Of a DNA stretch of 64,000 bases, positions 49,365 through 52,931 are shown one piece after another. The notes under the pieces are model-generated. The model was not told the DNA's origin and ran no database searches. It worked only from the letters and a program-made list of their open reading frames with translations. A program made the translations under genes and the position numbers. Each line of letters starts with the position of its first letter. Position 1 is the stretch's first letter. This DNA is from Kiritimatiellia bacterium (GTDB lineage Bacteria > Verrucomicrobiota > Kiritimatiellia > RFP12 > UBA1067), in NCBI GenBank assembly GCA_017454745.1, contig JAFTCL010000011.1:1-64000 (forward strand), in the 5' to 3' direction.

Positions 49365-52300
49365 TCAACGCCGCAGCCACGAACGCATGCGCGTGACGAA
49401 TTCAGTCGAGAACGTCTTCTCCAAACGCGGCCAGTCCTTCTCCGCAAACTCCTTCAACGCGGCGTCGCGCTCGGCCAGCAGACGCTGGGTGTCGGCGGGA
49501 TGCGCGGCGATCGCATCGCGCGTTTTCCATACGACTTGCCACGACGTGGGGAGATTGGCGGCCGCTCTCGGCCAGCGGCGGCTGGCAAGGGCGAACCTGA
49601 AGTCCTCCGTAAGAGCGGCAATGCGGGTGTGTTCGCCTTTATGCCCGGAGAGTTCGGCAGTCAGAGGGCTGCCCCCCCTACCATAGACAAGTTCCACCAC
49701 CGTCTCTCGCGTCCCGTCCTGCGGCGGCGTCTTCACCACGACGGCAAGGTCTTCCGCGTCGTAGGTCCATTCGCACGGATTCCCGTTCACGGTTGCCGAC
49801 TTGGGTGGCGCGGCAAGCGGGAACTTAAGCGTGTAAGCCCCCTTTCGCGGCGCTATCGTCACACGGTTTCCTTCGCGCCGGATCGCCGTGCTGCGGAAGT
49901 TGGTCGCGTAGTCTGCGTTGTCTCCGCCATCTTCATAGATAGAGAAAGTTTGAGAATTTGAAAGTCCAAGAGCTTGAGGAGCACATAGGAGCACGAGGTC
50001 GTCGGTACCGGGATTGCCGAGGCGGTTGACGGAATCGGGATACATCGGAATAACCGCGCCCGCCTTCACGAACCACGGCGTCTCCTCCACCGTGTAGCCG
50101 CGCGTCAGCTTGCGTCCGCCCTCCACGATCTCGCCACGCGAAACGTCGTACCACGTGCCCTCCGGGAACCATACCTCAACCTCCGCCTCCTTCGTCACGG
50201 GATCGACGGGCTTCATGACAGGCGCTACGAGGATGTCGTCACCGAACATGTACTGATTGATCGCCTCGTATGCGGCGTCCTCCTCCGGCCAGTCGTAGTA
50301 CATCGGGCGGCACAGGCATACGCCCGTGTCGTATGCCTCGCGCGCGGCGGTGTAGATGTACGGGGCAAGGCGGTAGCGCAGACGGTACGCCTCGCGCAGG
50401 ATGAAGAAGTGGTCGGCGTATTTCCACGGACGGCGATCGGCCCGGGAGTCCTTGGACGGATGGGTGCGGAAGATGGGCGTGAACACGCCGCACTGCATCC
50501 AGCGCGTCAACAGCTCGCCGTTTTCGTTCCTGCCGAACTGGGGACGGTTGTGTCCGCCAAGGTCATGCCCCCAGTATCCATAGCCCACGTTCGAGGCGGT
50601 AGCGGTGAACCACGGAATCGCCTCAAGCATCCGCCACGAGCTTTCGCCGTCGCCGGAGAAGCCGATCTGGTAGCGGTGCGAGCCGAGTCCGCCCCAGCGG
50701 TGGTAGATGATCGGACGACGACCGGGAGGGACGGGCTTCGTCCCGTCCGCGGCCGCGACGGAGCGCGGCCCTCCCGAATGTTCAAAGAATAGGTGGTTGA
50801 GCCAGAAGGTGTTGCTCAACGTGGGCTTGCCCTTCGCCATCAGCCATTGCTGCCAGTCTAGCCAGAAGCAGTCCACCCCCAGCGCCTCCAGCGGTTCGAT
50901 GATATCCTTGAAATAGACTTCCGCCCAGCGCTCCTCGTCGCCGCGGAACGGGATTGTGCCCTTGCCCTTCCAGCCGTAGTCCTTGGCGAAGCGGGGAAAG
51001 ACTTCCTCGCAGTCCGGGATGCCGCACGCGGGGTGCATGTTGAGCGGCGCGTGCAGGCCCTCGCCGTGCAGGAAGCGGAACATCCCCGCAGGGTCGGGGA
51101 AGTAGCGGCGGTTCCACGTGTAGCCGCCCCAGCCCCACATCTGTCCGCCGAGCGGCTGGATGATGTCTGGACGGTCCCCGATGTCCCAGTTTTCGTGCCA
51201 ATACATCTCGATCACACATACGTCCACCGGGATGCCGACGGAATTCATCTCGCGCACGACCTGGCGGTAGTCGGACTCGGTATCGTTCCAGAACCGGCTC
51301 CACCAGTAGCCGAACGCCCACCTCGGCGGCAGAGGGATGCGTCCCGCAACCTTCACGTAGTCGCCGAGGCAACCCTTGTAGTCGTGCCCGTACGCGAACA
51401 CCGTCAAGTCGCGGTACGCGCCCTTCTCGCGCCTCGGACGCTCCTCCACCCATTCCTTCCAGTAGTCGCCGCCCTTCACGAAAAGCGGCTTCTGCGAATC
51501 ATCCACAACGGCCACGCCGCGCCGCGACAAGATGCCCTTCTCCATGCGCGGCAGAAGATCCTTGACGCTGCTGCGCGCGTCGATGGTGCGCATCGTGCCG
51601 AGCAGGTTCTCCTTGTCCTCCGCAAGCACCGCAACTGCCGGGAGGGGTGCGCTCCGTTGCGCCTGCGTCCGCGACGGAGCGCGGCCCTCCCCGATGACGC
51701 TCACGACCAGATTGCTCTCATTGAACGCCCCGCCTGTCCATTCAACCTTCATCCCATCCGTCTCAATCAACGCGCCTTCTCCCATACGCGCGAATGTGTG
51801 CTTGACCGGCGGCATCGCACGATTTATAAAGGTGAGGCTCGGACGATCTTCGAACGAACCGTCCTCGCTCCATTCGCAGCGGATCATGCGGTCGGTGAGT
51901 AGCGTGAATCGCGCCTTGCCCGCGAACTCCGTGTTACCGACCACCACCGCGCACGATGCGGCGCAGACGGACTCGGTGTCTTCCAGCGCCGCGCCCGCCT
52001 TGCCGGAGAAGGCAAGCGCACCCGTTCCCGCATTGGTAAATACCTTGCGCGAGACAGTATCCCACAATACACCTTCCCCGCCCCTCCGCGCAGGTATGAG
52101 ATTCACGAGAGCGTTGCCGTTCGCGTCGTCAAGGCGCACAGAATACCACTTCGCGTGGCAGTAGCGATGCGAAAGGCCGCGGTTGCAGTCGTCGTTCCAT
52201 GAGCAGCCGAGAAGGATCGTCCCCGCGTCCGTGTGAGCGCCGATCGACCCTTCGGCAAGTCCGCTCATCACAGTCTTGCCGTCAAGCGTGGCCGCGCGAT

Positions 52301-52931
52301 TCGCAAGCGCGATGGTGTGCGGCACGTTGAGGTCGCCGAGCGTGAACATAAGGTCGGGCGTCTCGCCGTCCGCCTTCAGCGACTCGCCGCGATAGCGCAT
52401 GTAGAACTGCCCGTCGGCGCCGTTGGCCTTGCGTCCGATGGTGAAGTCATCGGTCGGCAGGCTACCAATCAGCGAAGCCCAGGTGTTGCCGTCCGCCTTC
52501 TGGTAGTCGTTGGGCGAATACTGGAACTTGACTGCGAGTCCGTAAACGGATGTAGACTTGACACCCGTGTCGATGTACTGGTCCTTCCCCAGATACACAT
52601 ATCCGCCGTCCTCAAGTAAGCGCACCTTGCCTGTCGCGAGAACGCGCAACACCTGTCCGGGCGCAATGCCGCCGCGTCTGAATCTGTACTCCGTGGCCTT
52701 CTCCGTGTTGGCCGCGCCACGCCGAACACGATTCGTCTCCGGCCAGGCCGCTGGATCCATGCCCCTGTCCTCGGTGTCCCACACCAGATGCAACGCGGAA
52801 GTCTCGTCCAGCGTTCCCGCCGGAACCTTGGCCACCACGTCGTCTCCGTCAAGGCACACGGAAATCGGCATTGCCGCATTGGCTTGCGCCATGACCGCCG
52901 CCGCAATCACGGCAAGAATGCTGGTACGCAT
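49365..52931 (-). CDS. Secreted GH31 alpha-glycosidase with in-frame repeat insertions
   Basis: 1188 residues with a signal peptide (ILAVIAAAVMAQANA). Residues about 108-300 form a LamG/concanavalin-like module (GGYVYLGKDQYIDTG) set before the GH31 part. The catalytic (beta/alpha)8 barrel has nucleophile Asp692 in FWLDWQQW and acid/base Asp761 in FSGDGESSW; GH31 enzymes are alpha-glucosidases, alpha-xylosidases and related. Residues 414-431 and 719-736 are peptide encoded by two related palindromic DNA repeats; the second lies between the two catalytic residues. A third unusual stretch encodes QALGLSNSQTFS near 983-996. A GH31-typical SIYEDGGDNADY follows. The start has weak upstream context; no clear promoter was assigned. 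Confidence 0.87.
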   Translation of the reverse strand: MRTSILAVIAAAVMAQANAAMPISVCLDGDDVVAKVPAGTLDETSALHLVWDTEDRGMDPAAWPETNRVRRGAANTEKATEYRFRRGGIAPGQVLRVLATGKVRLLEDGGYVYLGKDQYIDTGVKSTSVYGLAVKFQYSPNDYQKADGNTWASLIGSLPTDDFTIGRKANGADGQFYMRYRGESLKADGETPDLMFTLGDLNVPHTIALANRAATLDGKTVMSGLAEGSIGAHTDAGTILLGCSWNDDCNRGLSHRYCHAKWYSVRLDDANGNALVNLIPARRGGEGVLWDTVSRKVFTNAGTGALAFSGKAGAALEDTESVCAASCAVVVGNTEFAGKARFTLLTDRMIRCEWSEDGSFEDRPSLTFINRAMPPVKHTFARMGEGALIETDGMKVEWTGGAFNESNLVVSVIGEGRAPSRTQAQRSAPLPAVAVLAEDKENLLGTMRTIDARSSVKDLLPRMEKGILSRRGVAVVDDSQKPLFVKGGDYWKEWVEERPRREKGAYRDLTVFAYGHDYKGCLGDYVKVAGRIPLPPRWAFGYWWSRFWNDTESDYRQVVREMNSVGIPVDVCVIEMYWHENWDIGDRPDIIQPLGGQMWGWGGYTWNRRYFPDPAGMFRFLHGEGLHAPLNMHPACGIPDCEEVFPRFAKDYGWKGKGTIPFRGDEERWAEVYFKDIIEPLEALGVDCFWLDWQQWLMAKGKPTLSNTFWLNHLFFEHSGGPRSVAAADGTKPVPPGRRPIIYHRWGGLGSHRYQIGFSGDGESSWRMLEAIPWFTATASNVGYGYWGHDLGGHNRPQFGRNENGELLTRWMQCGVFTPIFRTHPSKDSRADRRPWKYADHFFILREAYRLRYRLAPYIYTAAREAYDTGVCLCRPMYYDWPEEDAAYEAINQYMFGDDILVAPVMKPVDPVTKEAEVEVWFPEGTWYDVSRGEIVEGGRKLTRGYTVEETPWFVKAGAVIPMYPDSVNRLGNPGTDDLVLLCAPQALGLSNSQTFSIYEDGGDNADYATNFRSTAIRREGNRVTIAPRKGAYTLKFPLAAPPKSATVNGNPCEWTYDAEDLAVVVKTPPQDGTRETVVELVYGRGGSPLTAELSGHKGEHTRIAALTEDFRFALASRRWPRAAANLPTSWQVVWKTRDAIAAHPADTQRLLAERDAALKEFAEKDWPRLEKTFSTEFVTRMRSWLRR
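49945..49983 (-). repeat. AT-rich word-repeat tract inside GH31 coding sequence
   Basis: Plus strand AAAGTTTGAGAATTTGAAAG followed by TCCAAGAGCTTGAGGAGC is markedly AT-richer and more repetitive (TTTGA, TTGA words) than the flanking GC-rich sequence. It stays in frame and encodes QALGLSNSQTFS where GH31 proteins usually have a short turn before a YEDDG-like strand. Confidence 0.45.
50723..50776. repeat. Palindromic element B (54 bp) inside GH31 coding sequence
   Basis: Begins CGGGAGGG and ends CCCTCCCG, so the ends are exact reverse complements. Inside are an inner hairpin GGACGGG...CCCGTCC and a CCGCG...CGCGG stem. Its last 22 bases are identical to those of element A. 54 bp is 18 codons, so the frame is kept. 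Confidence 0.75.
51640..51691. repeat. Palindromic element A (52 bp) inside GH31 coding sequence
   Basis: A long hairpin: a 22-nt left arm beginning GGGAGGGGTGCGCTCCGT pairs with a 22-nt right arm ending GGAGCGCGGCCCTCCC at 19 of 22 positions, with an 8-nt loop CCTGCGTC. In frame it encodes GEGRAPSRTQAQRSAPLP. Confidence 0.75.

Follow-up and report, generated by a model that had tools for sequence, protein, structure and literature searches.

REPs are extragenic by name. REPINs, the inverted doublets of REPs, were defined as extragenic as well (Bertels and Rainey 2011, PMC3116915), and for the comparison with the RAYT/REP system we also relied on Nunvar 2010 (PMC2817692). REPs inside genes are not new. 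Di Nocera 2013 catalogued the GTAG and CGTC REPs, and the intragenic ones came mostly from Opitutus terrae and Rickettsia conorii (PMC3733652). In that record, for example in uvrA of Opitutus terrae, REPs or their dimers lie inside ORFs and encode 20-30 amino acids, sometimes with two per gene and in some cases at the same site in orthologues (PMC3733652). The R. conorii palindromic elements RPE-4 and RPE-6 were classed there as CGTC-tagged REPs, and association with a transposase gene was given as absent for the CGTC REPs (PMC3733652). Some RAYT subclasses have non-canonical flanking structures (PMC6006769). Is there any such system in Kiritimatiellae? Our literature search found no work on such repeats in this group. 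A preliminary description of the DNA studied here had pointed to two palindromes in one gene, likened them to Rickettsia palindromic elements and stated that no named family of this kind was known in the phylum. On this last point the description needs correcting: the elements belong to the known REP/REPIN kind, and in-gene REPs had already been described in Opitutus terrae, itself a verrucomicrobium (PMC3733652).

The window analysed is a stretch of 64,000 nucleotides from a Kiritimatiellia bacterium. Its minus strand holds an ORF of 1188 aa (49365..52931) encoding a GH31 protein, alpha-xylosidase/alpha-glucosidase-like, with an N-terminal extension; it matches Pfam PF01055/PF21365 (PF01055 with E 1.1e-57), and its top PDB match is the alpha-xylosidase 7wj9. 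The N-terminal 340 residues also match a protein elsewhere in the own genome (39%; L034, G000:C22:24675-25637) and one in the sister genome (38%), thus the extension is a shared domain. Within this ORF lie two palindromic elements of 52 bp, both in frame as previously proposed: element A (51640-51691, minus strand), which begins at codon position 2 and encodes GEGRAPSRTQAQRSAPLP, and element B (50724-50775, minus strand), which begins at codon position 3 and encodes SGGPRSVAAADGTKPVPP. The two are therefore read in different frames. Both have the same layout, namely the tag GGGAGGG, a hairpin, a 6-base centre, a second hairpin and the inverted tag CCCTCCC, so that each consists of two inverted copies of a REP unit, GGGAGGG followed by a covarying hairpin and CCG. 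Unit 1 carries the hairpin CCGCG-CTCCGT-CGCGG in A (51669..51691, minus strand) and in B (50753..50775, minus strand). The inverted unit 2 carries GTGCG-CTCCGT-TGCGC, G-T pairs included, in A (51640..51662, plus strand), and ACGGG-CTTCGT-CCCGT followed by CCG in B (50724..50749, plus strand). The middle parts differ, as had been noticed, and they do so by compensatory changes in the hairpin stems. The long hairpins were also borne out: as single-stranded DNA, A folds with -27.6 kcal/mol (z -6.4) and B with -23.1 kcal/mol (z -3.2). The preliminary description had given A its correct length of 52 bp, but its 54 bp for B included one flanking base too many on each side, and the right end shared by A and B, taken to be 22 bases, is in fact 23 bases long (CCGCGACGGAGCGCGGCCCTCCC). 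In 100 shuffles of the window this end had no match, even with 3 mismatches allowed.

Are the two elements part of a dispersed family? A search of the whole own genome with this end, as the preliminary description had suggested, gave 30 REP units when up to 3 mismatches were allowed, and none with the pattern reversed; the surveys of this and other genomes were made by pattern searches and fetched stretches. Unit 1 of A occurs in five other exact copies beyond the GH31 gene. Among the copies of this genome, only A and B form complete REPINs, and only they are convincingly intragenic; nearly all the others lie outside genes, where REPs would be expected from the definition. The stems covary strongly. 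Over six stem positions in 141 distinct units drawn from the own and related genomes, 86.5% of the positions pair, compared with 54.7% (at most 58.4%) when the partners are shuffled. Thus a short tag with a covarying hairpin is dispersed over the genome, in the manner of REPs. The tag itself is GGGAGGG and not the canonical GT[AG]G guide (GTAG/GTGG in REPINs described so far). We read it as a variant tag within the REP kind, since there are RAYT subclasses whose flanking structures depart from the canonical ones (PMC6006769). A further observation concerns five loci of the own genome (L010, L012, L017, L023, L028), where units of about 200 bp with REP ends are enclosed by a larger repeat whose inverted ends read CTAGTGGTTTGGCACA. 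Copies of this kind stand close to the ends of several contigs, which suggests that longer identical copies break the assembly.

A small ORF in the own genome (G000:C23:27856-28308) has REP units with the same hairpin on either side. It matches the NCBIfam model REP_Tyr_transpos with E 2.5e-20 and 72.8 bits, just below the cut-off of 80. A profile built from six of its relatives has as its best PDB match TnpA-REP of E. coli (4er8, E 1.2e-12), which also came first in a fold search with the predicted model of one relative. GGGAGGG-hairpin units adjoin most of the close relatives in related genomes. Like TnpA-REP and the IS200/IS605 TnpA, these proteins have the HUH-Y1 fold and retain the W-Q-x8-R spacing of guide recognition (LWQRDCWDTQLR). 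A and B are REPINs because they are inverted doublets of this RAYT-linked REP. Note that the linked gene was identified from its REP flanks and not from the PF01797 cut-off; the only hit of the own genome above that cut-off, a protein of contig C68, has no REP flanks and was rejected as the linked RAYT. That protein (L031 805-1971) is RAYT-like, has 388 aa with a long C-terminal part, and is encoded beside an hsdS-like gene of a type I restriction system.

The flanking hairpins are not confined to the close relatives. At most of the loci checked in other PVC bacteria, RAYT genes are flanked by GAGG-tagged hairpins, often with TGGAGGG, and GTAG hairpins were missing at 22 of the 23 PVC RAYT loci checked. 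The G-rich tag is therefore broader than the Kiritimatiellae repeat family. Across Verrucomicrobiota and relatives (L336-L402), TGGAGGG-hairpin flanks are common at RAYT genes, a tag that belongs to neither the GTAG nor the CGTC class. Several RAYT genes of genera g13 and g15 have themselves been invaded by in-frame REPs or REPINs (L111, L113, L114, L115, L118, L121, L107), in which they differ from the REPIN/RAYT system described before. The inserts stand just ahead of the PLWQ guide-recognition motif, past the helix that follows the HUH motif. In the predicted model the REPIN-encoded stretch forms a loop of low confidence (block means 41-57, with the core mostly >90), and it is this long loop right before the WQ motif that sets several Kiritimatiellae RAYTs apart from TnpA-REP and the IS200/IS605 TnpA. 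No REP or REPIN inserts are present in the aligned PVC RAYTs from outside the family.

Of the 112 genomes of the family, 57 have complete doublets (GGGAGGG-N30-60-CCCTCCC). The copies number 66 in G008, 60 in G038, 54 in G036, 47 in G039 and 46 in G026, while the reversed controls give 0, 11, 10, 7 and 9, respectively. How many of them live in genes? For six genomes, a REPIN was called intragenic if the frame is open for at least 40 codons on both sides and shows third-position GC (GC3) bias. The intragenic share is 34/50 in G036, 9/15 in G038, 5/17 in G024 and 5/41 in G026, and 0/18 in G008 and 0/17 in G010. In g13 and g15, many or most copies are in genes and in frame, which differs from the extragenic REPINs as defined; the GTAG and CGTC REPs have other tags and are described as mostly intergenic. 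The in-gene copies have two further properties that set them apart from those REPs, lengths in 3n+1 steps and one preferred frame. The length is 3n+1 for 48 of 53 intragenic copies versus 52 of 105 other copies (Fisher p 2e-7), and for G024 and G026 alone the numbers are 9/10 versus 14/48 (p 6e-4). One reading phase is used by 47 of the 53 (binomial p 8e-17). It should be noticed that these counts are not independent events, as some copies of G036 and G038 are orthologous, and that the length class also depends in part on the lineage, since the non-intragenic copies of G036 are likewise 3n+1 in 16 of 16 cases. What may account for the preferred phase? Stop codons do not in G036, where 3%, 12% and 2% of the peptides contain a stop in phases 0, 1 and 2. 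The Arg+Lys share is lowest in the preferred phase there (0.11 vs 0.26-0.28), and in G036, G038 and G024 alike the preferred peptide, xGGSRSCAT..DAQERVPP, has the fewest Arg and Lys of the three frames.

The host genes are of many kinds. Intragenic REPINs occur in genes for prolyl-tRNA synthetase (ProS), a pyruvate-ferredoxin-oxidoreductase-type protein (POR), a PFL-like protein, GH2, GH20 and GH88 proteins and an MmeI methylase; in the ProS, PFL-like, GH20 and methylase proteins, a Pfam match spans the insert. With the RAYT genes added, palindromes stand in frame in many unrelated genes, just as the Rickettsia elements do. In orthologues of GH31, ProS, a decarboxylase and POR, the corresponding loops either have no insert or a different one, and in one genus the loops of ProS, the decarboxylase and POR interchange REPINs, single REPs and other short-repeat inserts. 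The insertion sites behave as permissive loops which take whichever repeat is active. The REPIN-bearing decarboxylase of G036:C75 (L194) also has, further on and in the same frame, an array of another repeat (SGASPLSGPAALSGASPLS...).

How many bases does an insertion add? If it added exactly 52, the frame would shift. The number cannot be read directly because close orthologues also differ in loop sequence; no precise empty site was found among the GH31, ProS, decarboxylase and POR orthologues, and no transposition event was seen. Inspection of the flanks of the listed intragenic REPINs revealed no target-site duplication, only a preference for C at the outer -1 position of the tag (29/48 intragenic ends and 84/160 other ends). 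From this preference together with the length classes, two extra bases seem to be involved: the unit may extend to 54 bp, C-GGGAGGG...CCCTCCC-G, or insertion itself may bring in the two bases.

The GH31 sites can be followed between genomes. At site A, REPINs with different stems and identical junctions are found in the window's gene, G024 and G041, and a partial one in G026; by locus, the orthologues with other REPINs at these junctions are L047 and L048, with a partial one in L049. In other species the site holds a 114-nt GTTGCCAATG repeat in frame, and in more distant species it has no insert. The inserts of G041, G024 and G026 were considered as ancient conservation in distant taxa, and this was rejected because the stems are not the same and, in other genera, the site is vacant or filled by an unrelated repeat. 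Among the orthologues compared, the REPIN of site B is present only in the window's gene, and a REPIN at a third site only in G024. The alignment of homologues, which the preliminary description had also called for, thus shows that at both sites the peptides are missing or replaced by other inserts. The GTTGCCAATG repeat (GTTGCCAATG...CAACATT, about 114 nt), seen in this GH31 loop in L044 (G034:C76), is a second dispersed repeat, with 17-75 matches per genome in a six-genome search, 17 of them in the own genome.

The GH31 gene itself was probably acquired horizontally, judging from its sequence. Its best matches in other genera share 80-92% identity with it, whereas for two housekeeping proteins of the same genome, ProS and POR, the identity to the G036 (genus g15) counterparts is 51% and 65%. 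The one other genome of the own genus has no full-length match. Of the 52 positions of B, 50 agree with the REPIN that G024 has at the third site of this gene, and 49 with a GH88 REPIN of G026. The simplest reading is that A and B probably arrived together with the gene. Because other places in the own genome have the CCGCG half unit as well, later copying inside this genome is possible.

These observations give a scenario. We consider it very probable that A and B are REPINs, likely spread by RAYT, that probably came as passengers of the GH31 transfer, and that they represent in-frame insertions tolerated in loops. The REP unit ([C]GGGAGGG-hairpin-CCG, about 27 nt) would most likely spread as single-stranded DNA by means of the C23 RAYT, and the gene would most likely derive from a related genus of rumen Kiritimatiellae in which REPINs also inhabit genes. 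In the donor lineage, an insertion would survive only in a permissive surface loop and with the frame kept: a REPIN 3n+1 bp long, together with two bases at the junctions, would add 3n bases, in a tolerated frame without stop. The encoded linker, short, hydrophilic and rich in Gly, Ser, Ala and Pro, would be nearly neutral for the host protein. Did A and B instead insert after the gene had arrived, by the action of the own RAYT? This is rather unlikely, though it deserves consideration. The own genome does have a RAYT with REPs, and the CCGCG-CTCCGT-CGCGG unit stands exact at five other places in it. But the genome offers no other complete or convincingly intragenic REPIN, other genera have REPINs at site A with the same junctions, the ACGGGC half of B was not seen among the other own-genome loci examined, and the whole of B closely resembles in-gene REPINs of G024 and G026.

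The likeness to Rickettsia palindromic elements, which are described for that genus as palindromes inserted in frame in many unrelated genes and read as tolerated peptides (PMC3733652), stands for behaviour and for keeping of the frame. It does not extend to a separate identity. The two are alike by behaviour, the phylum is different, and the Rickettsia elements have no stated RAYT link (PMC3733652), while the unit found here is an inverted REP doublet with a conserved unpaired tag, and the same REP flanks a RAYT gene. Moreover, G008 and G010 hold the same kind of element entirely outside genes (0/35 intragenic), and the prior study itself lists RPE-4 and RPE-6 as REPs (PMC3733652). A strict class of coding palindromes without any tie to a transposase is thus highly improbable. 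About equally improbable is that the elements are MITEs, with a DDE transposase acting on their terminal inverted repeats: some copies do form the ends of the ~200-bp units in a larger repeat with inverted ends of its own, but two separate hairpins are present in each unit, the transposase linked to them is a RAYT, and no target-site duplication was seen in the flanks of the listed intragenic REPINs. One might also think of ordinary turnover in loops of low constraint, in which GC-rich sequence became palindromic by chance; loop length varies in all orthologues, and other short-repeat inserts occupy the same sites. Against this stand exact 23-bp copies at unrelated loci, the numbers of complete copies in relatives (46-66, with 0-11 in the reversed controls), and the strong stem covariation, which leave it scarcely any probability.

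According to the literature searched, the tag, the host group, the predominance of in-gene copies, the single frame, the codon-step lengths and the invaded RAYT gene look new. Is the family adapted to life in genes? Tentatively, its unit length and preferred frame could have been shaped by selection on the peptide, with a REP of 27 nt, doublets of 3n+1 and spacer changes mainly in steps of three, and the family has entered its own transposase; we regard this as plausible but a little short of probable. For annotators there is a warning that REPIN peptides are mobile DNA and not domains. To the known RAYT/REP systems the study adds a class with the tag GGAGGG, found repeatedly in the PVC group, and it points to a lineage with REPINs mostly in coding sequence, including that of housekeeping enzymes and of the transposase itself. 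If true, this would be a natural system for how transposable DNA turns into protein sequence, and for which loops tolerate such DNA.
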